A DNA stretch of 43,820 nucleotides, taken from positions 1 through 43,820 of IMG/VR virus record IMGVR_UViG_3300049846_001592, one strand, 5' to 3'. Shown here in pieces: positions 1-36,113 of the stretch (positions within the stretch are counted from its first letter, which is position 1; each line of letters opens with the position of its first letter). Origin of the DNA: a virus. Under the pieces are notes generated by a model. It worked only from the letters and a program-made list of their open reading frames with translations. It had not been told where the DNA came from and ran no database searches. The position numbers and the translations under genes were made by a program.

Positions 1-253
1 CAGGCTTGCTAGGAGCGACAGGAGAGCGGCTTCCGTCGTCGTGGCTGGCAGCGTGTGAAGCTGGCTCACCATACCGACTTCCTTCGCCGCTCGCTCCTTG
101 CTACGCGTGTAGACGATACTTGGGGGGGTCCTCCCCGACGAGCACAACATCGAGGCCAGGGGCTCGGCCGTGCTTGGCCCGGAACGAGTCCACCCCGCAC
201 CGTATCTCCGACCGCAGACTTTCAGCCAGCTTCCTTCCGTCAAGGACGTTCAT
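1..253 (-). pseudogene. folD: FolD (methylene-THF dehydrogenase/cyclohydrolase), frameshifted N-terminal part
   Basis: FolD interconverts methylene-, methenyl- and formyl-tetrahydrofolate in one-carbon metabolism feeding purine and thymidylate synthesis. From an ATG at 253 the frame reads LDGRKLAESLRSEI near the start and VVLVGEDPP at its end, both typical of the FolD N-terminus. One base out of phase it continues as SIVYTRSKERAAKEVGM and stays open to the window edge; the Tyr and Lys of YTRSK match FolD active-site residues. The two frames meet at a run of seven G (122-128 on +); six would restore a single frame. The gene follows the DUF3037 gene by about 10 bases and seems to close the same operon. 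The rest of the protein is outside the window. Whether the shift is real, phase-variable or a sequencing error cannot be told here. The family call rests on pattern recognition of the N-terminal third only. Confidence 0.8.
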
Positions 254-4527: not shown

Positions 4528-6438
4528 CTACTTTCGAAGTACGAGGATCGGTTCGAATTTCGCTTCCTTTCCGATCCGACCGAGAGGTAACTCAAGAGTT
4601 CTCTCTAAGGTAAACCCAAGCACACGAGCAATCCTGGCGAGTTCGTCGACGATAGGGAACTCCTGTCTGCCAACACGAACGTTTTTTGTGTTCACACAGA
4701 ACACACCGCCTTCTCGAAGCACTTGGAATGACTTACGAGCAAAAGGCGTGAGAAACTCTTCTACCCATGTTGTCCAGGTTTTGTACCTGACCCAACTTTG
4801 TGTTGGGTCATTCGAGTAACGCTCGACAGAGAAGTAGGGTGGGCTCGTTAACACACAGTCAGCCAGGACATCGTCCAGTAGAACGTCCTCAAAAGGTGCG
4901 TTGGTGAAACGTGCGCTTGGATCGCCAAAAGCTTGAAACAGCGCTTGGAAGGAAGATGTCGCAGACGGATGGGGGTCTATCCCGAAGTAACGCCGGCCCG
5001 CCGCAAGTGTCCCAGCCGCCCTACCGCCATACCCGGCACAGGGGTCAAGCACAAGTCCTCCCAAAGGGCAATATGCCTCGACAAGAGCCTTTGCGAAACA
5101 CGGGCGGAAATTCGTCGGCGCACGCACGACAGCTTGGATCGCCCTCATCACACGAGTAGGTGTCACGGGATCACCAACTCGAAGCTGAAATTGAATGGCA
5201 CGACGAAGCAGGGTGGGATCGTACCAGGCTGCACGGAGAGAGGGGTTGTCTCGGTAACAGGCATCCCAGCGGTGAGGGAAAAAACGAAGACACGTAAGTG
5301 CCCCCGCATTGGAAGTCTTGATGATCGTAGTGCCTTCGATCTGAGTTGCCGCACGCTTCAGTCGAAGCACATCCTTGGCCACAGCTTCATCCGTAGCCGC
5401 GACCAATGGGATTTCCGTACGCGAGAGGATTGACACCGCCTCATCGACGTAGGATGAGCGCTTGGGGTCGAGGGACTTCAGCGCCGCACTGGCCTCATCT
5501 GAGGTGAACTCCTTGCGACTGTTTGCCTTAGGTCTACAGGGCGGTTTTTTCGCCAGCCCGAAACGACCCATGGCTCTCAGAACACTCTGCCGGGAGACAT
5601 TGAAGATTTCACCGATCTGTCCGGCAGAGAGACCTCGTTCCACAAGTGGTTGGATCTTTGCTTCGACAAGAATATCGCGCGGTAATGGCCCCGCACGACG
5701 AGGGTTGACCTCTAGCTTGTATGCCATACACGGGGGCATACAAGGAGAGACCTTGTCTACGAATCGAGTGAGGCTCGACCCACCTTGAATGTGAATAGAA
5801 GTATCCCCTGTAGTCTCATACAGAGAAGCTTTTAGACCATGAGTTCTCAAAACACGTAGCAACATGCGTTGGTTCGCCTTGTCCGGGCTGACAGCAAACC
5901 TCACGTAATTTGCAGTTCTTGACCCGTCATCCATGAACCAGACGGCAAGCGCCAGATCATCGACTTGAGTTGGGTCTAAGCCAACGAAGGTCTTGTCTCC
6001 CTTTCCGTCAGGGTAAAACAACCTCCAGTAAGGGAACAACGCTCGGCAACCATGCGTGAGGAGTCTATAGCCAGCATGTGCGCCCTTGTTGGATGGGATG
6101 GTTGACGAGACGAATGAGCCCCATTCCTTAGATTTCCAATCCAGGTAGGCCCTCTGATCAACAGAGTGGTGTTCAACATACCCTGCCGTCTCCGACCCGG
6201 TTCTACGCAAACCCCCGTCACCTAGCATCGAGCCAATGAGTATCGACAGAAGACGCGGGGGTAACGTTTCAGGTAAAGTGCGTCGGTCTGACTTGAGCAA
6301 AGTCGGGATGCCGTGCTCGGCTCTAAGCCGACTGATCTTCACCTGGTAGGTTGAAAACCGTTGTGCGATCTCGCCATCAGTCAGCCCCTCGACAACGTAC
6401 AGTTGATACAGCTCGTCGGATGAAATGTCCAGCTTCAT
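4528..6438 (-). CDS. LAGLIDADG homing endonuclease fused to an N4/N6 DNA methyltransferase
   Basis: A 636-residue fusion. Residues 1-45 form a helix-turn-helix (EGLTDGEIAQRFSTYQVKIS). Residues 60-250 are a LAGLIDADG-type endonuclease with two motif helices, ILIGSMLGDGG (66-76) and LAVWFMDDGS (164-173), both keeping the acidic metal ligand. A second helix-turn-helix follows (AGQIGEIFNVSRQSVLRAM, 272-290). The C-terminal 330 residues are an amino-methyltransferase of the N6-adenine/N4-cytosine class: AdoMet motif I LDPCAGYGGRAAG (464-476) precedes the catalytic motif IV TSPPYFS (531-537). It sits between the major capsid gene's terminator and the next virion-like gene, so it looks like an inserted selfish cassette, and the upstream terminator implies its own promoter. 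Inference: methylation could protect the site the nuclease cuts. Each domain call is firm; the linkage is unusual. Confidence 0.85.
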   Translation of the reverse strand: MKLDISSDELYQLYVVEGLTDGEIAQRFSTYQVKISRLRAEHGIPTLLKSDRRTLPETLPPRLLSILIGSMLGDGGLRRTGSETAGYVEHHSVDQRAYLDWKSKEWGSFVSSTIPSNKGAHAGYRLLTHGCRALFPYWRLFYPDGKGDKTFVGLDPTQVDDLALAVWFMDDGSRTANYVRFAVSPDKANQRMLLRVLRTHGLKASLYETTGDTSIHIQGGSSLTRFVDKVSPCMPPCMAYKLEVNPRRAGPLPRDILVEAKIQPLVERGLSAGQIGEIFNVSRQSVLRAMGRFGLAKKPPCRPKANSRKEFTSDEASAALKSLDPKRSSYVDEAVSILSRTEIPLVAATDEAVAKDVLRLKRAATQIEGTTIIKTSNAGALTCLRFFPHRWDACYRDNPSLRAAWYDPTLLRRAIQFQLRVGDPVTPTRVMRAIQAVVRAPTNFRPCFAKALVEAYCPLGGLVLDPCAGYGGRAAGTLAAGRRYFGIDPHPSATSSFQALFQAFGDPSARFTNAPFEDVLLDDVLADCVLTSPPYFSVERYSNDPTQSWVRYKTWTTWVEEFLTPFARKSFQVLREGGVFCVNTKNVRVGRQEFPIVDELARIARVLGFTLERTLELPLGRIGKEAKFEPILVLRK

Positions 6439-6450
6439 TCCAGTAGCACA

Positions 6451-6479
6451 AGCATAAACTAATCACAGGGCAACAGCAA
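6451..6479 (-). promoter_or_regulatory. Candidate sigma70-like promoter for the LAGLIDADG-methyltransferase gene
   Basis: On the minus strand TTGCTG (6479-6474) and TATGCT (6456-6451) are separated by 17 bases, placing a start site near 6444, just before the ATG at 6438. The match to TTGACA/TATAAT is partial (3/6 and 4/6). A promoter is expected here because a strong terminator lies just upstream. A near-palindrome, GCACATGT-ttac-arm at 6480-6499, abuts the -35 and could be an operator. Confidence 0.3.
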
Positions 6480-6526
6480 GCACATGTTTACACGTGTGCA
6501 ACATTCGCCTTCTTGGACCAAAAATG

Positions 6527-6564
6527 AACAAGGCCCGATTGGCGGAAACCAACCGGGCCTTGTT
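6527..6564 (-). terminator. Rho-independent terminator after the major capsid gene
   Basis: On the minus strand AACAAGGCCCG pairs perfectly with CGGGCCTTGTT. After one mismatch, four more pairs (TTGG/CCAA) close a short loop. The stem is followed by CATTTTTGG, giving the U-run of an intrinsic terminator. It starts about 20 bases past the capsid stop codon. This is the clearest terminator in the window and marks the end of the main late transcript. Confidence 0.85.
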
Positions 6565-6585: not shown

Positions 6586-7470
6586 TCAGAAGCGCTGGAC
6601 AACGAGACGCGTCAGACCACGGGGGTTGAACGCTCCGATACCCACGTTCTCGAACACGCTGAAGCCGATCGTGCGGGCCTTGGGGTCATCGGCGCTGAGC
6701 ACCGTAAGCTCCGTGCGAACGGGGAAGCGTCCGAAGTTCTCCGGCTCCGCGCAGACGTAACAGAAGCCGACCGGGACGAGGCGGCTCGTGATGATCTGCG
6801 CGCCCCAGAGGACGGCCTGGAGGCCCGTCTTGAGGAGGGTTGCCTGGCTCTCGATGTCCAGGATGTCGCGGCCGAACTTGCGGATGTCCGCGTAGTCGAC
6901 AGCGTTCATGTAGATGCGCGCGACCCGGAGGTCGTGACGTTCGATCTCCGCGAACGCATCCGCGAGGACCGACGGCGAGATCGGTGCCACGACGGCAACG
7001 TCGGGGTTCGTCTGGCCGGGGAGCGTGTCGAAGCCCGAGACAGCGATGCTGTCCAGAACCGCGAAGACGCGCTCGTCCTCCGCTGCCTGAATCTGCGCCT
7101 TGGCGAGATCCTGACTGCGCTCGATGAGGTCGAAGCGACGCTCCTTGATCTGCGTGAGCGGGATCTCCGGGTTCGAGGCGATCTCGAACAGCGGGAAGAT
7201 CACGCGGCGAGGCTTCTGAATCGCCAGGATGTTCTGGCCTTCCTCGCCGACCACGAACGCCGTAACGTCCGGGTCCTTGTCGTAGATCGGGAGCGCACCG
7301 TCGGGGAGCGCCTCCACGAGGAACGTCTTGCGGCCAACGGCCGTGTAGTCACGGCGGAGGCGGAGGGGTTGGATCATCGAGGCGGCGAGCTTCGTACGGC
7401 CTGCGGCCGTCTTGATGTACTCGCTGATGATCTGCTGCTTGACATCGTTGGACACTTGTTGGGTTATCAT
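6586..7470 (-). CDS. Major capsid protein (HK97 fold)
   Basis: A 294-residue protein with the layout of short HK97-fold capsid proteins that lack a delta domain. An N-terminal helical arm (VKQQIISEYIKTAAGRTKLA) is followed by an E-loop region with basic residues (RLRRDYTAVGRKTFLVEALP). Next comes the spine-helix region (KERRFDLIERSQDLAKAQIQ), a P-domain helix-strand pattern (PSVLADAFAEIERHDLRVAR), and an A-domain ending in the surface strand IITSRLVPVGFCYVCAEPE. The final residues, FENVGIGAFNPRGLTRLVVQ, are a typical closing beta segment. Its neighbours support the call: decoration-like protein, Q-rich scaffold and protease lie directly upstream in the usual head-gene order, and a strong terminator follows. 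The assignment comes from architecture and context, not from a database match. Confidence 0.85.
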   Translation of the reverse strand: MITQQVSNDVKQQIISEYIKTAAGRTKLAASMIQPLRLRRDYTAVGRKTFLVEALPDGALPIYDKDPDVTAFVVGEEGQNILAIQKPRRVIFPLFEIASNPEIPLTQIKERRFDLIERSQDLAKAQIQAAEDERVFAVLDSIAVSGFDTLPGQTNPDVAVVAPISPSVLADAFAEIERHDLRVARIYMNAVDYADIRKFGRDILDIESQATLLKTGLQAVLWGAQIITSRLVPVGFCYVCAEPENFGRFPVRTELTVLSADDPKARTIGFSVFENVGIGAFNPRGLTRLVVQRF

Positions 7471-9542: not shown

Positions 9543-12368
9543 TCACGATGTCCCGAGAGCATAGAGACGACCCTTTGCGATCAGGGTGGCACCCTCAGAT
9601 TTCGTAAGGTCCCGACCCATTGCCTGGCGGCAGGCGCTGAGATACGCGGCGACGTTACGGAAGTGGCTCAGTCCACCCACTGCAACGACGACCGAGTAAA
9701 TCCGCCCCTCGCCCGCCATCGAGGAACGCCGCGTCGCGAAATCGAGAACGCGGGATACAGCGAGGATCTCCTTCCCAGTGAAGGAGCGCGACGCCTGTAT
9801 CGACTTCCATCCCCCTGACCGATACATGATCAGACCAAGGAGAACCTTCTTTGCGGCTTCCGCATCACCAGTCATCGCAATGACTGAGCGAGCAATCCCG
9901 CGCCAATGCGGGTAGCGGAGCGCCGACTTGATGATAGAGTCGTTCTCGTGGAGTTCGCCCGCAGGCTTGGGCAGTTTTGCTGCCTCGCCCTTGCCGATCT
10001 CACCACGAACCTTCTCCAGCGCACGCTCACGGATCGCATCCGCAATATCGTTGACGACCTTCTCCAACGGATCTGCGTCGTCCTTCTTGTCGGTCCCCTT
10101 GTCCCCACCACCACCTGAATCAGGGGTTCCGAAATCAAAGGGGTCCTGCGCGATCTTGGATCCCTCGGTGTCGATGGATCCACCGAGTTCAAAGCCACGT
10201 ACCTTGAGGAACTGGCCCGATTGCATGAGAGTCGCGACCTTCTGGATCATCCCAGGATCGATGTCCTGGTTGTTTGCGTTCAGCCCATTGGAGAGGATGC
10301 TCGCCATCTTGCGGGCGTCTTCCGCCGAAAGGATGTTCCGGAGGACCGCACCCGTAAAGGCCGGGTTCGCGACCCAAGACGCCTCGATGAACTTGACCGA
10401 GCCAGGATCGCTCTTGTGCCCACACAACTCAGCGATCTTCCGCTCCTTACCGAAGTCGTCGTAGAACTTCGACCCCTTGAAGTAGCGGATGTGCGGACAG
10501 AGCTGGCTTTCGTCTTCGGCGACATTGCCGCAACGGGTGCACTGAGTGAACGTGACCGTGCAGTTATGGACGGCCACACCCTCGACGACGTAGGAGTGGT
10601 CCTCGTCGACTTCCATGTCATGGACCTCACCCTGGTACGACATCGATTCGATGCTTGTGACAGGAAAGACTACTATATCATCCAGAACACGGAGATGTGC
10701 CTCGGTAGCAGCCTGATCCTCAAACGCCTTTCTGCAATGTTCGCCGAGCTTTTTGAGCTGACGTGCACCGATCACGAGATTGAAAGAAGCAAGCTTTCCT
10801 GTCTCGGGGTGTCGAATAGAGACACCGCCATTGACGGCTTCACTAACCTCTACGGTCTGTCCTCCAAATCGACATTCGATTCGAGTGAACACGCCGATGC
10901 GAGTGAGAATGGCGTGCATCTGGCACGCAAGGTTGTAGGAAGTCGTCGCCCCAGACAGATTACGACTGCCCCCTCTTGTTCTAACAGAGCGCCCTCCGTC
11001 CCCATCCAACCAACCCCCAACAAGTTGTCGTTGGATTTCTACAGGCCATGTGAAAGCTTCGAAAGATAGTCGTTTGGTCGAAGCGTACTCACCCCCATGG
11101 CATTTGAACCACTCCGCTACGTCTCGACGGTGTGCGTGGACAGTGCAAGTTGAGCGATCTTCTCGCTCCTGTACCCAAGCGGCTACGTCAAATTCTTGGG
11201 CGAGAAGTTCAACAACTTCTTGAGCAAAGGTGTTTCGTTCTGCCAAAGAAAAGTTGAACTGGACCTCTGTGATCTCGCCTTTGCGCTTAAGGAAAGACCC
11301 CTCTGCGACAAAGAAGCCGAGGAGACGAGCTTTTCCAGGGGATACCTGGTCAATGTACTCGAACTCGTTCCCAATCCTTGGGAAACAGAGGTAGTCGCCG
11401 ATCTTTAGCTCATCGGCACGAACTTCCTCAAGTGTGTAACCACGGATACTGGCTTTACGAGCGAGACGCTCCCGCGCCTCGTCGAGAGAGTAGGTGTTGT
11501 TGGGGTTAAAGACCCTCTTGTCATGCCCTACCTTGTATCGCTTAGAGATACGTCGGAGAGCGGATCGATCATCCTTCTTGAGTTCTTCACCACAACCGCA
11601 AGCGCAGTGTGTCTTTGCACGCAAGACAAAGAAGGGGTGATTTTCCGTCGCCGTAATGCGCGACGGAATACCAACAGCATCAATCTTACGAAGGTTCCAA
11701 CGCCCGATACGAATTTGCTTGTTCAGTACCTCACGGGTACGGCCCTTGTGCGTCAGAACCATATCCCCAGGTGCAACATCTTCGATAGCGACCCTAGTGC
11801 CATCGGCCATCGTGACCTGGGTGCCCGGCAAAAAGCAACCCATGGACAGCGTCTTGAGCTGGCCACTGCTGATAGCGGCAACGAGAGGACGGTACTTTCG
11901 CTGCGTCGCAACGAGGATGTCCACGTAGAGCGAATCACCGATGTCTCGGGCCGCTGCGTCGATGATCTTGCCCTTTGACATCTCCTTGATCTGAAGATGC
12001 TCGACGTAGTTCTCGCCGCCGACGAAGGTCCGGTAACACTGCTGCAAGAGCGGCCGGTCCCACGCATCGTGGTTGTTGTTGACGAATTTGGTCGTCGTGG
12101 GCGTGATGAGATAGTTCGAGAACCGACGGTCAATCTGAAAACCGTCGACAATCGATTTCCCAAGGTTCCCGGGCCCGTCCTCCGTGTCGACCGAAGCAAC
12201 GATGGTGCAGTGGCTTAGAAGCCACTCGTCCGGATCGTAGTCCTTGAAGACCACCTTCGACGCGGTCCGAGCGTTGAACGAAGCCTCCTTCGCACGCACG
12301 TCTTCCCAGCCGTCGAACGTGATGTTCGGCTGCACAACTTTGGAGTGCGCGTACTTGACGAAGGCCAT
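9543..12368 (-). CDS. Prohead maturation protease, interrupted by an intein
   Basis: A 941-codon frame: a 516-residue protein split by a 425-residue intein. The N-extein (1-177) contains FVNNNHDAW, with candidate catalytic His at 100, and LVAAISSGQLKTLSMG, with candidate catalytic Ser at 175, fitting the prohead-protease layout in which Ser lies in an SMG or SIG turn. The C-extein resumes as CTVTFTQCTRCGNVA, a Cys-rich element, then VKFIEASWVANPAFTGAV, the typical close of the protease domain near residue 700. The last 240 residues are a separate hydrophilic and helical region (a DKGTDKKDDADP linker, then helices) that may act in assembly. The protease processes scaffold and head proteins during capsid maturation. 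The start has GAGGTG five bases upstream and overlaps the preceding stop in TGATG. Confidence 0.75.
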   Translation of the reverse strand: MAFVKYAHSKVVQPNITFDGWEDVRAKEASFNARTASKVVFKDYDPDEWLLSHCTIVASVDTEDGPGNLGKSIVDGFQIDRRFSNYLITPTTTKFVNNNHDAWDRPLLQQCYRTFVGGENYVEHLQIKEMSKGKIIDAAARDIGDSLYVDILVATQRKYRPLVAAISSGQLKTLSMGCFLPGTQVTMADGTRVAIEDVAPGDMVLTHKGRTREVLNKQIRIGRWNLRKIDAVGIPSRITATENHPFFVLRAKTHCACGCGEELKKDDRSALRRISKRYKVGHDKRVFNPNNTYSLDEARERLARKASIRGYTLEEVRADELKIGDYLCFPRIGNEFEYIDQVSPGKARLLGFFVAEGSFLKRKGEITEVQFNFSLAERNTFAQEVVELLAQEFDVAAWVQEREDRSTCTVHAHRRDVAEWFKCHGGEYASTKRLSFEAFTWPVEIQRQLVGGWLDGDGGRSVRTRGGSRNLSGATTSYNLACQMHAILTRIGVFTRIECRFGGQTVEVSEAVNGGVSIRHPETGKLASFNLVIGARQLKKLGEHCRKAFEDQAATEAHLRVLDDIVVFPVTSIESMSYQGEVHDMEVDEDHSYVVEGVAVHNCTVTFTQCTRCGNVAEDESQLCPHIRYFKGSKFYDDFGKERKIAELCGHKSDPGSVKFIEASWVANPAFTGAVLRNILSAEDARKMASILSNGLNANNQDIDPGMIQKVATLMQSGQFLKVRGFELGGSIDTEGSKIAQDPFDFGTPDSGGGGDKGTDKKDDADPLEKVVNDIADAIRERALEKVRGEIGKGEAAKLPKPAGELHENDSIIKSALRYPHWRGIARSVIAMTGDAEAAKKVLLGLIMYRSGGWKSIQASRSFTGKEILAVSRVLDFATRRSSMAGEGRIYSVVVAVGGLSHFRNVAAYLSACRQAMGRDLTKSEGATLIAKGRLYALGTS
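10563..11837 (-). mobile_element. LAGLIDADG intein in the prohead protease gene
   Basis: A full-length, apparently active intein of 425 residues. Block A is CFLPGTQVTMADG with Cys1 as nucleophile. Block B is ITATENHPFF with the T-x-x-H pair. The DOD homing-endonuclease motifs are LLGFFVAEGS (172-181) and LVGGWLDGDGG (272-282), both with acidic residues. Blocks F and G are YQGEVHDMEVDEDHSYVV and VAVHN, followed by Cys+1 of the C-extein. An extra Cys-rich patch, HCACGCGEE (77-85), lies between splicing and nuclease domains and may bind zinc. The insertion is two residues after the proposed catalytic Ser, in line with inteins choosing conserved active sites. All residues needed for standard class 1 splicing are present. 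Confidence 0.95.
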
Positions 12369-26838: not shown

Positions 26839-27846
26839 TCACTCTTCTTCCTGGGAAGATAGAACGAGAAGACCCTCGGCCACCGCCGTCATCGGATCCG
26901 TCGCGTGCCGCACCTCAGTGATTTCGATCGGGAAGCCACGCTTCTTGCGAGCGACCTCGAACTGCTCCTTGAAGAGGTCGAGAAAACCAGGCGCTCGCGT
27001 GGTACCACCCGAGACGACGAAGGGGATCGGGCCGGGCAGCTCGACGGACGACTGCACCTTCTTGAACTGCAAGGTGATGTTGTCGAGGCAGTAGTCGGCG
27101 AGGGTCCTGATGTAGAGCGCGATCGCCTCTTGCTCTCGGCCAACGGGCTTCAGTAGATCGACGCCCTTCTCCTTGATCGCGCACATGCGCGCGGCCGTGC
27201 TCCCAACGGCTTTCGCCGCGTGATGATCGATCCAGTCACCACCGCGCGCAACCGAGAAGGCCATGCCCTGCACCGTCTGGAACGACAATGCGACGTTGCA
27301 CATACCGCTACCGAAGCTCACGGCGAGACCGGAGAAGCCTTCCTCCGCGCACTGCGAGTAGATGATGGCCATCGCCTCGTTCATCGGATGTGCGGTGTAC
27401 CCATGCTCGGTAATGATCTTGCGGAAGATTTCCGTGTGGTAGACCACGTCTTGCTCCGGGTCATCGATCGGAGCTGCCGGCACGGAGTAGTAGCAGTGCT
27501 CGCCCGGGGCGAGCGGGTCACCGAGCACGTTGTGGACGAGGAGGCTCAGGATCTCTTGCGCATCCAGCTCTGAGGACGAGATCACGCCTCGTGCGAGGGG
27601 GCGGCGAACCTCCCTCTTGAAGAGGTTCGCCATCGTGAGGGCGCTATCACCAATGACAACGAGCTGGTTGCCCTTCTCGACGTAGCTGACCTTGGACATC
27701 TTCAGCGACTTCTTCGCTTCCGGGTCCAGATCCAGGAACGCGTCACGAACGCGCTTCGTCACAACCTTCCCAGCAAGCTGCCTCGCCGAGACGATGTTCA
27801 TGGTGCCCACGTCGAGCCCGACTCCGGGCTGATTCTGCTCTGTCAT
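26839..27846 (-). CDS. Actin/Hsp70-superfamily ATPase
   Basis: A 335-residue protein with the nucleotide-binding motifs of the actin/Hsp70/MreB superfamily in order. Phosphate 1 is VGLDVGTMNIVSA (9-21). The connect-1 helix is MNEAMAIIY (155-163). Phosphate 2 is GLAVSFGSGMCNVALSF (173-189), a GGD turn is SVARGGDWID (198-207), and the adenosine motif is PFVVSGGTTRAPGFLDLF (275-292). The length is right for a lone actin-fold ATPase without an Hsp70 substrate domain. Such proteins polymerise (ParM, MreB, phage Alp proteins) or act as chaperone-like switches. Here the gene is embedded among virion genes, after a Dps-like gene and before a structural gene. A filament that positions DNA or capsids, or an assembly chaperone, are both possible. 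The fold is firmly supported and the role is not. Confidence 0.85.
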   Translation of the reverse strand: MTEQNQPGVGLDVGTMNIVSARQLAGKVVTKRVRDAFLDLDPEAKKSLKMSKVSYVEKGNQLVVIGDSALTMANLFKREVRRPLARGVISSSELDAQEILSLLVHNVLGDPLAPGEHCYYSVPAAPIDDPEQDVVYHTEIFRKIITEHGYTAHPMNEAMAIIYSQCAEEGFSGLAVSFGSGMCNVALSFQTVQGMAFSVARGGDWIDHHAAKAVGSTAARMCAIKEKGVDLLKPVGREQEAIALYIRTLADYCLDNITLQFKKVQSSVELPGPIPFVVSGGTTRAPGFLDLFKEQFEVARKKRGFPIEITEVRHATDPMTAVAEGLLVLSSQEEE

Positions 27847-34640: not shown

Positions 34641-36113
34641 CTAAAAACCCACGAATTTTCTGGGTGACAAAACCCCCGCGCCCACGTACGGCCCGAACGC
34701 GCTTCGAATGCCCGTCCCGTACTTCGGCTGTTGAAGGCCCTTGATGATGTTGACCGTGGCCTTGGTCTTCTCTAGCTGCTTGTCGAACTGCTCGGACGTC
34801 GACTGAAAAGCCGCCTCATACTTCGACGCCTTGTCGATGTCCAAAGACACCCCACCAATCGAGTACGAGTTGTGTGCCAAAAGCCCATTCGAGAGGGCGA
34901 AGTTCTGCGGCCCGGGGACCGACAGATCGTACATGAACTCGCGCTCGGGGAGCACTGCGACCTCGGCAATCTGCCGGTAGCCAACGTGAAGACCACCATC
35001 ACGCTTGAACACACTGACGATGGGATTGGAAGTCTGTAGGTCGCCCGCCTTGACCGGGAAGACCCGCCCCGGGCCGCCGTTCGTTCCGTGTGACGTGACA
35101 CTGTAGAGGCTATGGTCCTCGGTGCAGATCACCGAAACAGAACCCCCCTTGTAGCCCGCGTGAAGGGGGCCGCCGAGGTGCTTGGTGGTGATCTTCAGGA
35201 TCTTCTTCCCCTTGGCGTTGTGCCTCAGGACGTCCCCCACGTAGGCGAGGCAAGCGTCCTTCGTGTCTTCGTAGACAGAACGAACGCGTAGCTTACCCGA
35301 CAAGAGGCAGCGTTGAATCTTCTTCGCCACCGTGTACTTCGGTGTGGCGCCGATGCGAAGGCCGTACAGCTCCTCCATGGAGATGTCGTAGTCGGTCCCA
35401 TCAGGAAGAACGACCCGGACCTCTTGCTCGCCGGCGACCGAGAACTCGTCCGCGATCCAGTTGATCCGGACTGCTTGGAGGGCATGCATCATCGCGCCTG
35501 TCAGGAGAAGAGTGCGCCAGTTGGGTCGTTGCGCGACAAGGGTTTCGACGTTGGCGAAGGGCGTGGCAGGTGGCGCGGAGGAGATCATGTCGAGAGACCG
35601 CTCGATGAACTCCTTTAGCTCCCCGTCTTCCCAAATATACCCGAAGACTCGATTGAACTGCCGAACCGTCTCTTCATGGGCAGGCGGCCGGAAGTGGTAG
35701 TTGCGATCCGGGTTGTTGTCCCGGAGAAGGATGCGCAGACGGCGCATCAGGTCGGCTTCGGTTTGCGTGTAGCCCGGTGCGGCCAGGGTTTGCGAGGTGA
35801 CCTTGTCAATCACCTCGAACTCCATCACGACCTGTTGAATAGGCGCTCCTACGGACTCCCTGAAAGTCCAGCGCAGGCGGTACACACCTAGGTTTGCGTC
35901 AAGGGGGATGAGCAGGCTCGCGTAATACTCACCGACGGCGGGGTTCGCCGGCATGCGGCGAGGGACTCCAACGAGCACCTCTTGGTGCGTCGTGAAATCG
36001 TAGATCGCGTAGCTGATCTCGGCAGCGTTAGTAGGCGTACCGGAAGCGCTCTCTAGGGTGAGGCAGAGATCATCGCGTCCAAGCGCCTGCCCACGGTAAA
36101 ATGCAACACCCAT
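34641..36113 (-). CDS. Neck/tail virion protein interrupted by a mini-intein
   Basis: A 490-codon frame: a 299-residue virion protein split by a 191-residue intein. Residues 1-105 form a beta-sandwich (MGVAFYRGQALGRDDLCLTL, then YYASLLIPLDANLGVYRLRW) resembling the small protein at 39130-39528. The next region is helical (DLMRRLRILLRDNNPDRNYH, then LKEFIERSLDMISSAP), and the N-extein ends ALQAVRINWIADEF. After splicing it would join SYSIGGVSLDIDKASKYEAA, a natural continuation, and end with QPKYGTGIRSAFGPY. Probably a tail or neck component of the contractile tail; the exact homologue is not recognised. It starts directly after the ParB-like gene. Confidence 0.7.
   Translation of the reverse strand: MGVAFYRGQALGRDDLCLTLESASGTPTNAAEISYAIYDFTTHQEVLVGVPRRMPANPAVGEYYASLLIPLDANLGVYRLRWTFRESVGAPIQQVVMEFEVIDKVTSQTLAAPGYTQTEADLMRRLRILLRDNNPDRNYHFRPPAHEETVRQFNRVFGYIWEDGELKEFIERSLDMISSAPPATPFANVETLVAQRPNWRTLLLTGAMMHALQAVRINWIADEFSVAGEQEVRVVLPDGTDYDISMEELYGLRIGATPKYTVAKKIQRCLLSGKLRVRSVYEDTKDACLAYVGDVLRHNAKGKKILKITTKHLGGPLHAGYKGGSVSVICTEDHSLYSVTSHGTNGGPGRVFPVKAGDLQTSNPIVSVFKRDGGLHVGYRQIAEVAVLPEREFMYDLSVPGPQNFALSNGLLAHNSYSIGGVSLDIDKASKYEAAFQSTSEQFDKQLEKTKATVNIIKGLQQPKYGTGIRSAFGPYVGAGVLSPRKFVGF
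34869..35441 (-). mobile_element. Mini-intein with serine nucleophiles (Ser1, Ser+1)
   Basis: A 191-residue intein with no homing-endonuclease domain. Block A reads SVAGEQEVRVVLPDG, matching the usual C-x-x-G-x-x-x-V-x-x-x-x-G layout but with Ser in place of Cys1. A second strand, YVGDVLRHNAKGKKILKITT, leads to block B VICTEDHSLYS with the T-x-x-H pair. Block F is EFMYDLSVPGPQNFALSNG and block G LLAHN, followed by Ser+1. The exteins join smoothly only at these points. About 40 extra residues lie between block A and the strand before block B. All splicing residues are present, so activity is likely. Confidence 0.85.

Follow-up and report, generated by a model that had tools for sequence, protein, structure and literature searches.

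Selfish nuclease systems include both homing nucleases and restriction-modification systems. Type IIG restriction-modification enzymes combine a nuclease and an amino-methyltransferase (MTase) in a single polypeptide, and LAGLIDADG enzymes have long, rare recognition sites. Phage homing nucleases of the free-standing type cleave at a distance of hundreds or thousands of bp from the gene that encodes them (PMC2988022). Homing nucleases are enriched beside terminase, ribonucleotide reductase and capsid genes and at exchange boundaries (PMC10448857). Some phage methylases are interrupted by homing elements, such as the HNH element of ShiLan (PMC11855218), and methylases with intein and other insertions are also described (PMC9957025). 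Here we describe a gene that joins a LAGLIDADG nuclease to a complete MTase in one chain. It lies behind the major capsid protein gene in a 43,820-nucleotide stretch of viral DNA (positions 1 to 43,820 of IMG/VR record IMGVR_UViG_3300049846_001592; hereafter the window). We consider it about 50% probable that this gene is a free-standing homing cassette in which the complete amino-methyltransferase joined to the nuclease would spare the carrier.

The fused gene (complement(4528..6438), ATG start) encodes a protein of 636 aa with the order helix-turn-helix (HTH), LAGLIDADG, HTH, MTase. The N-terminal HTH (residues 5-50, 6289..6426) was seen in the AlphaFold2 model as helices 7-16, 21-27 and 32-41 and was matched by a hidden Markov model of the family. 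The two-motif LAGLIDADG nuclease domain (residues 61-245, 5704..6258) is defined by Pfam, motif conservation and fold. The second HTH (residues 259-292, 5563..5664) has helices 259-267, 272-279 and 283-292 and a weak Pfam match to HTH_7. A flexible linker (residues 300-306, 5521..5541) precedes a complete SPPY-type amino-methyltransferase (residues 313-636, 4531..5502), which is defined by Pfam, by its motifs and by an extent equal to that of stand-alone MTases. All these features are on the minus strand. LAGLIDADG_2 (PF03161) matched residues 65-221 (E 7.9e-15; 55.6 bits, cut-off 25) and N6_N4_Mtase (PF01555) matched residues 527-589 (E 1.6e-8; 35.2 bits, cut-off 26.7), both scores exceeding the curated cut-offs of the families. 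PHROGs gave phrog_11023 (LAGLIDADG homing endonuclease) and phrog_12517/phrog_67 (MTase). PADLOC placed homing endonuclease and type II MTase profiles each on its own half; no PADLOC profile spanned both halves, and no type IIG family model was matched. LAGLIDADG motif 1 (ILIGSMLGDGG) lies within residues 63-76 and motif 2 (LAVWFMDDGS) at residues 164-173, with the catalytic Asp present in both GDG and DDG. MTase motif I (LDPCAGYGG) is at residues 464-472 and motif IV (TSPPY) at residues 531-535.

The AlphaFold2 model, built on a 21-sequence alignment, had a mean predicted local distance difference test score (pLDDT) of 89.2. Its one low-confidence stretch (pLDDT below 50) was the linker, which separates the HTH-LAGLIDADG-HTH half from the half with an MTase fold. 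In Foldseek searches, I-SceI was the top PDB match of the nuclease half (E 9e-10; TM-score 0.70-0.75, depending on target length). The top PDB matches of the MTase half were class-I S-adenosylmethionine-dependent methyltransferases, with the tRNA N2-methylguanosine (m2G) MTases Trm11/TrmN first; in a viral structure library this half matched several proteins annotated as N4-cytosine MTases. The fold fits either substrate, and the TSPPY motif together with the Pfam and PHROG profiles favours DNA over RNA as the probable one. An earlier note on this DNA, made from its letters alone, had proposed the four-part polypeptide at these coordinates, where the ORF proved to be on the minus strand, and had quoted the four motifs. 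Pfam, PHROGs, AlphaFold2 and Foldseek bore out the architecture, all four motifs were located, with conserved catalytic residues, and the two halves matched different families rather than one single-family protein.

The major capsid protein gene (6586..7470, minus strand; phrog_2522, E 2.5e-52) is the fixed left neighbour of the slot that holds the fused gene. An intrinsic terminator (6527..6564, minus strand) was predicted between the two genes, as the earlier note had it, and the slot looks autonomous. The capsid protein is 90-99% identical in the best 80 of 531 related contigs, whose sources include genomes of 300-530 kb. GC content is 54% in the fused gene, 64% in the capsid gene and 60% in the window. 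Related loci are given here by L numbers. Between the window and L158, DNA identity was 91% up to exactly the capsid stop codon, and nothing was alignable after it. When L233 was compared with the empty locus L202, homology picked up again at the stop codon of the inserted open reading frame (ORF). The same pattern was found for L187 and the empty L189; the insert thus lies between the capsid terminator and its own stop codon.

The clearest pair was L228, which carries a fusion, and L231, which is without insert. These two showed 0 differences over 909 nt (-1057 to -149) and 20 differences, all synonymous, over the final 148 nt of that gene's capsid reading frame; divergent terminators and then the insert followed, and homology returned at +2632 in one and +87 in the other. 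A two-rate scan placed the change point of L228/L231 at -150. Further pairs differing in slot contents gave weaker breaks ranging from -90 to -265, among them -264 (window/L158) and -183 (L202/L233). DNA identity between relatives that differ in slot contents thus falls in the last ~265 nt of the capsid gene (6586..6850, minus strand). Conservation is lower at the capsid 3′ end overall, so L228/L231 is the one pair that is decisive on its own. Its pattern resembles co-conversion and would be expected if a break close to the 3′ end of the capsid gene had been repaired on a carrier template. A further pair was rejected as an empty/occupied comparison: L230 is without 1351 bp of the nuclease ORF of L233, with flanks otherwise ~100% identical. 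Since 1351 is not divisible by 3 and parts of the nuclease gene are left behind, L230 more likely arose by deletion.

The locus therefore has the marks of a free-standing homing gene: occupied and empty alleles (L233/L202, L187/L189 and L228/L231), a co-conversion-like flank in L228/L231, and a position outside any intron or intein, with the capsid ORF complete. These findings indicate that the fused gene is very probably a mobile free-standing homing cassette.

LAGLIDADG-MTase fusions were found in at least 17 other viral records at 25-63% identity. The scan of IMG/VR gave L001-L008 and L011 (33-63%) and the distant L016 (25%); later searches added L154, L158 (where the fusion ends at the contig end), L159, L214, L224, L228, L242, L245 and L299. 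An assembly chimera, which the earlier note had named as a possible source of the join, is ruled out by these many independent relatives of differing architecture. All of the fusions except L016 lie directly downstream of the same capsid gene or a homologue. In nearly all of the capsid-linked ones the ORF starts ~75-380 nt past the capsid stop codon, behind a terminator; L158 is an exception, with a zinc-finger nuclease ORF between capsid gene and fusion. Both LAGLIDADG catalytic Asp residues were retained in nearly all slot copies, as judged by motif alignment, and DPCxGxGG and TSPPY of the MTase were retained almost without exception across deep divergence. Nuclease and MTase are probably both active. 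Decay also occurs, as in L009, which has an in-frame stop codon. In uncultured phage LR745208.1 (L154:3971-7660), a 1230-codon ORF has the order HTH-LAGLIDADG-HTH-HTH-LAGLIDADG-MTase-zinc fingers; the first LAGLIDADG copy is dead (GNG/DRG, both catalytic Asp lost) and the second is intact. Remnants of the MTase ends persist in L233 when it is compared with L214 and L242, a natural deletion comparable with intact fusions.

A slot census covered 56 non-redundant loci, each with 1.2 kb or more of sequence past the capsid gene. LAGLIDADG-MTase fusions, cut ones included, occupied 10 of the 56 slots; fusions of a PD-(D/E)xK-like nuclease to the MTase occupied 2, LAGLIDADG genes without MTase 13, and none of these types 31. 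These frequencies are indicative, some loci having entered through a nuclease query, and they come mostly from the 80 loci closest to the window's capsid protein. L305 has a LAGLIDADG gene and then a separate MTase gene behind the capsid gene; in L239, the MTase gene of the slot comes after a PD-(D/E)xK-like nuclease gene. Every MTase of the family found so far in the capsid slot is fused to or adjoins a nuclease. On the sequences compared, the post-capsid slot is evidently a recombination or mobile hot spot. In L163 and L165, the slot may hold a capsid paralogue, since the ORF behind the capsid gene resembles the capsid N-terminus.

Phages commonly carry this MTase as a stand-alone gene, and such genes made up most of the survey of the family. 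Stand-alone members are ~340 aa long and correspond over their full length to residues ~313-636 of the window's fused protein; therefore, the nuclease was joined before a complete MTase, not inside one. The family also has other nuclease partners. Zinc-finger PD-(D/E)xK-like nucleases are fused to it in L161, L171/L173 and L241. The N-terminus of L161 has zinc-finger modules and tandem domains, and its low-confidence model resembles NhoI, PvuII, Eco15I and the homing enzyme I-Ssp6803I; the PD-(D/E)xK catalytic residues of L171/L241 look partly degenerate (SVK/NVK/NVR). Outside the capsid slot, the MTase is fused to HNH domains in L235 (phrog_374, E 4.5e-106) and to Vsr/EDxHD-like nucleases in L236 and L237 (weak phrog_9084, motif reading). 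In the MTase tree, the PD-(D/E)xK-fused L161 nested among ten LAGLIDADG-fused members (100/99), and LAGLIDADG-, Vsr-like- and HNH-fused MTases formed one clade (98/96). In the LAGLIDADG tree, the MTase-less nucleases formed one clade (100/99) separate from the fused ones. Nuclease partners of this MTase family were evidently exchanged. Of the earlier note's proposal, the LAGLIDADG-MTase fusion itself stood as a conserved feature; its scope was too narrow, since the same MTase family occurs with several unrelated nucleases. In other phages (L240, L248, L274 and L303) the family is joined to an N-terminal ParB_N-like domain, assigned by similarity in L248, where the Pfam match is a weak GmrSD_N.

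How might such a cassette spare its carrier? The earlier note had started from the premise that insertion is normally what destroys a homing nuclease's own site. This is true of intron- and intein-encoded nucleases; however, free-standing ones cut elsewhere (PMC2988022). When the cut site lies away from the insertion, the insert leaves the target intact, and the carrier must therefore be spared otherwise. Two routes to carrier immunity are a sequence-divergent capsid 3′ end and methylation by the fused MTase. During mixed infection, the HTH-LAGLIDADG-HTH part would cut the capsid-gene 3′ region of a cassette-free virus, and double-strand-break repair would copy the cassette together with the adjoining capsid 3′ end, as in intronless homing. 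The fused MTase may, with less certainty, methylate carrier DNA at or near the nuclease site; judged from the SPPY motif, this would be an amino-methylation, N4-methylcytosine being more likely than N6-methyladenine. The carrier's still-intact capsid gene would be spared and the unmarked rival cut, so that restriction-modification logic would serve homing, a role that the earlier note had suggested as a possibility.

Retention of an intact MTase, its covalent link to the nuclease, its adjacency where unfused and its repeated pairing with differing folds argue that methylation would serve the cassette. Protection against its own partner nuclease may be the main role of the MTase, a proposal to which we give slightly less than an even chance. 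Somewhat more tentatively, the locus could be a homing-modification system: the nuclease would cut rivals at the capsid gene, the MTase joined to it would label that site in the carrier, and restriction-modification logic would drive homing into a site left intact by the insert; an equally tentative part of this view is that the MTase would be a stable core taking on LAGLIDADG, PD-(D/E)xK, HNH and Vsr-like nucleases.

Several observations weigh against a protective MTase in a homing cassette. The partner exchange speaks against a tightly co-evolved pair of nuclease and MTase sites, unless the site or a targeting domain is shared. A 14-member LAGLIDADG clade of the same slot manages without MTase, so sequence immunity, or another way, can suffice. 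Because the 20 synonymous differences were co-transferred, carriers could be immune by sequence, and methylation is perhaps unnecessary. The ORF of L233 (6005-7642) has kept nuclease and zinc fingers and has lost the MTase domain. The event behind L228/L231 may have been a gain or a loss, e.g., recombinational loss in L231, and the hot-spot frequencies have the narrow base given above.

One other explanation is a homing cassette with cargo: the nuclease would account for its spread, and the MTase would shield phage DNA as a whole against host restriction, or bring some other general benefit, and so offset the cost of the nuclease, with no site-specific tie between the two. The MTase family is common as a stand-alone gene and so functions without nuclease, it stays while nuclease types change, and a comparable cargo role has been suggested where antitoxins are paired with homing nucleases in moraphages (PMC12619734). 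Against it, cargo has no need of a single polypeptide, the MTase has been fused or paired with nucleases repeatedly, and every copy found so far in the capsid slot stands with one. We regard this explanation as rather unlikely. An ordinary free-standing homing nuclease with sequence-based immunity, its MTase a passenger or DNA-binding aid, is improbable. It would fit the 20 synonymous differences in the 148 nt of capsid sequence transferred with the cassette, the change points found within the final 90-265 nt of the capsid gene in several pairs differing in slot contents, and the MTase-less occupants of the slot. Capsid nt 822 also differs between loci that carry only the homing endonuclease and all others (p 2e-4 to 5e-4, uncorrected). 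However, the near-universal catalytic motifs of the MTase point to an activity in use rather than mere DNA binding.

A single-chain, type IIG-like restriction-modification enzyme that excludes other phages from the cell, with LAGLIDADG replacing the customary nuclease and its capsid-side position incidental, would have nuclease and MTase in one chain as type IIG enzymes do, and the MTase is also fused to a restriction-endonuclease-like PD-(D/E)xK fold (the NhoI, PvuII and Eco15I matches). Occurrence of the same capsid slot in many phages, polymorphism of its occupancy and the co-conversion-like signature favour homing instead, and the long, rare sites bound by LAGLIDADG enzymes suit restriction poorly; we consider such an enzyme highly improbable here. 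Insertion of a LAGLIDADG element into an MTase gene, intein-like or of the ShiLan type, has published examples (PMC11855218, PMC9957025). Here, the nuclease precedes a complete MTase; no splicing (intein) family was matched by the fused protein in profile searches, and no Rfam intron was matched within the window. The end-to-end MTase match and the lack of splicing and intron models contradict an element inside the MTase, an intein or an intron, and this explanation is scarcely credible.

Candidate targets for the predicted nuclease were sought in the capsid gene. Among associations between capsid nucleotide and slot type, nt 822 was the strongest; being uncorrected and confounded by kinship, it is not claimed as a target. 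Synonymous sites were most strongly conserved at capsid codons 94-100 (7172-7188, minus strand), where the ratio of observed to expected codon entropy was 0.44 vs. a gene mean of 0.84. Ser99 is TCG in 96%, and the region overlaps a perfect dyad, TTCGAG-N5-CTCGAA. The dyad was equally present in empty-slot loci and therefore gives no evidence for a target.

The earlier note had also suggested an own promoter for the fused gene. A promoter consensus scan of the window found 0, and the best hexamer pair, TTGCTG-17-TATGCT (6451..6479, minus strand), is weak; at the matching place, several relatives have good, though uneven, sigma-70-like promoters of the form TTGAC(A/T)-16..18-TA---T. Upstream of the -35 region, GTGTAAAC (6486..6493, minus strand) is common to the window, L002 and L006 and is a lead for a possible operator. 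As a shared operator it was rejected: it occurred in 3 of 12 upstream regions, which equals the maximum in 200 shuffles and is not above chance.

Other genes of the window, all on the minus strand, include one with another homing element, in the structural region that also holds the fused gene. At 9543-12368, a prohead-protease-like protein (weak phrog_18299) is interrupted by a LAGLIDADG-bearing intein at about residues 179-603 (Intein_splicing 7e-12, LAGLIDADG_3 1.7e-8). A 490-aa ORF at 34641-36113 has a weak match to intein splicing family PF14890 (E 3.4e-7, residues 323-415) and is possibly a second intein. A Thg1-like tRNA-His guanylyltransferase (PF04446, E 1e-25) is encoded at 695-1483, and Volactin, of an actin-like protein family (PF25216, E 1.7e-73), at 26839-27846.

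If the MTase protects the nuclease site, homing would be freed from inserting into or mutating its target, and the cassette could sit beside an essential gene and sweep it repeatedly. Methylation would then be an epigenetic self/non-self label for phages competing in mixed infections, the family would offer a testable evolutionary bridge between homing and restriction, and protein engineering would gain a modular, naturally occurring series of nuclease-methyltransferase fusions. In the open-access full-text literature we found no precedent for a homing nuclease fused to a complete MTase. The open-access literature likewise yielded no description of a slot pairing one MTase family with several nuclease folds, and no report was found of a homing system that guards its carrier by its own methylation. 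The separate parts and capsid-adjacent free-standing homing genes are already known; the fusion to a complete MTase is apparently undescribed.

The fused protein shares with the I-SceI-like LAGLIDADG_2 enzymes (PF03161) the sequence family, the fold of residues 61-245 and both catalytic Asp residues. It differs from them in its flanking HTHs, its C-terminal MTase and its location outside intron or intein. With type IIG enzymes it shares a nuclease and an amino-methyltransferase in one polypeptide; however, the nuclease here is LAGLIDADG, the context is that of homing, the capsid slot is mobile, and no type IIG model was matched. For the homing nuclease clusters of PMC10448857, the main text of that paper mentions no methyltransferase component, whereas one is present here. 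As in the interrupted methylases of PMC11855218 and PMC9957025, a homing nuclease and a phage methylase share a reading unit; in those cases the element splits the methylase, whereas the MTase of the fused gene is complete, adjoins the nuclease end to end and is apparently part of the mobile unit. In position and behavior the fused gene resembles the seg/mob genes of T-even phages, which are intergenic beside a conserved essential gene, show co-conversion of the flank and have a distant cut site (PMC2988022); T4 segD, between genes 23 and 24, is a known capsid-adjacent free-standing homing gene. The T4 seg/mob enzymes are GIY-YIG or HNH nucleases without methyltransferase, whereas in the capsid slot described here a LAGLIDADG or PD-(D/E)xK nuclease and an MTase are carried in one chain.
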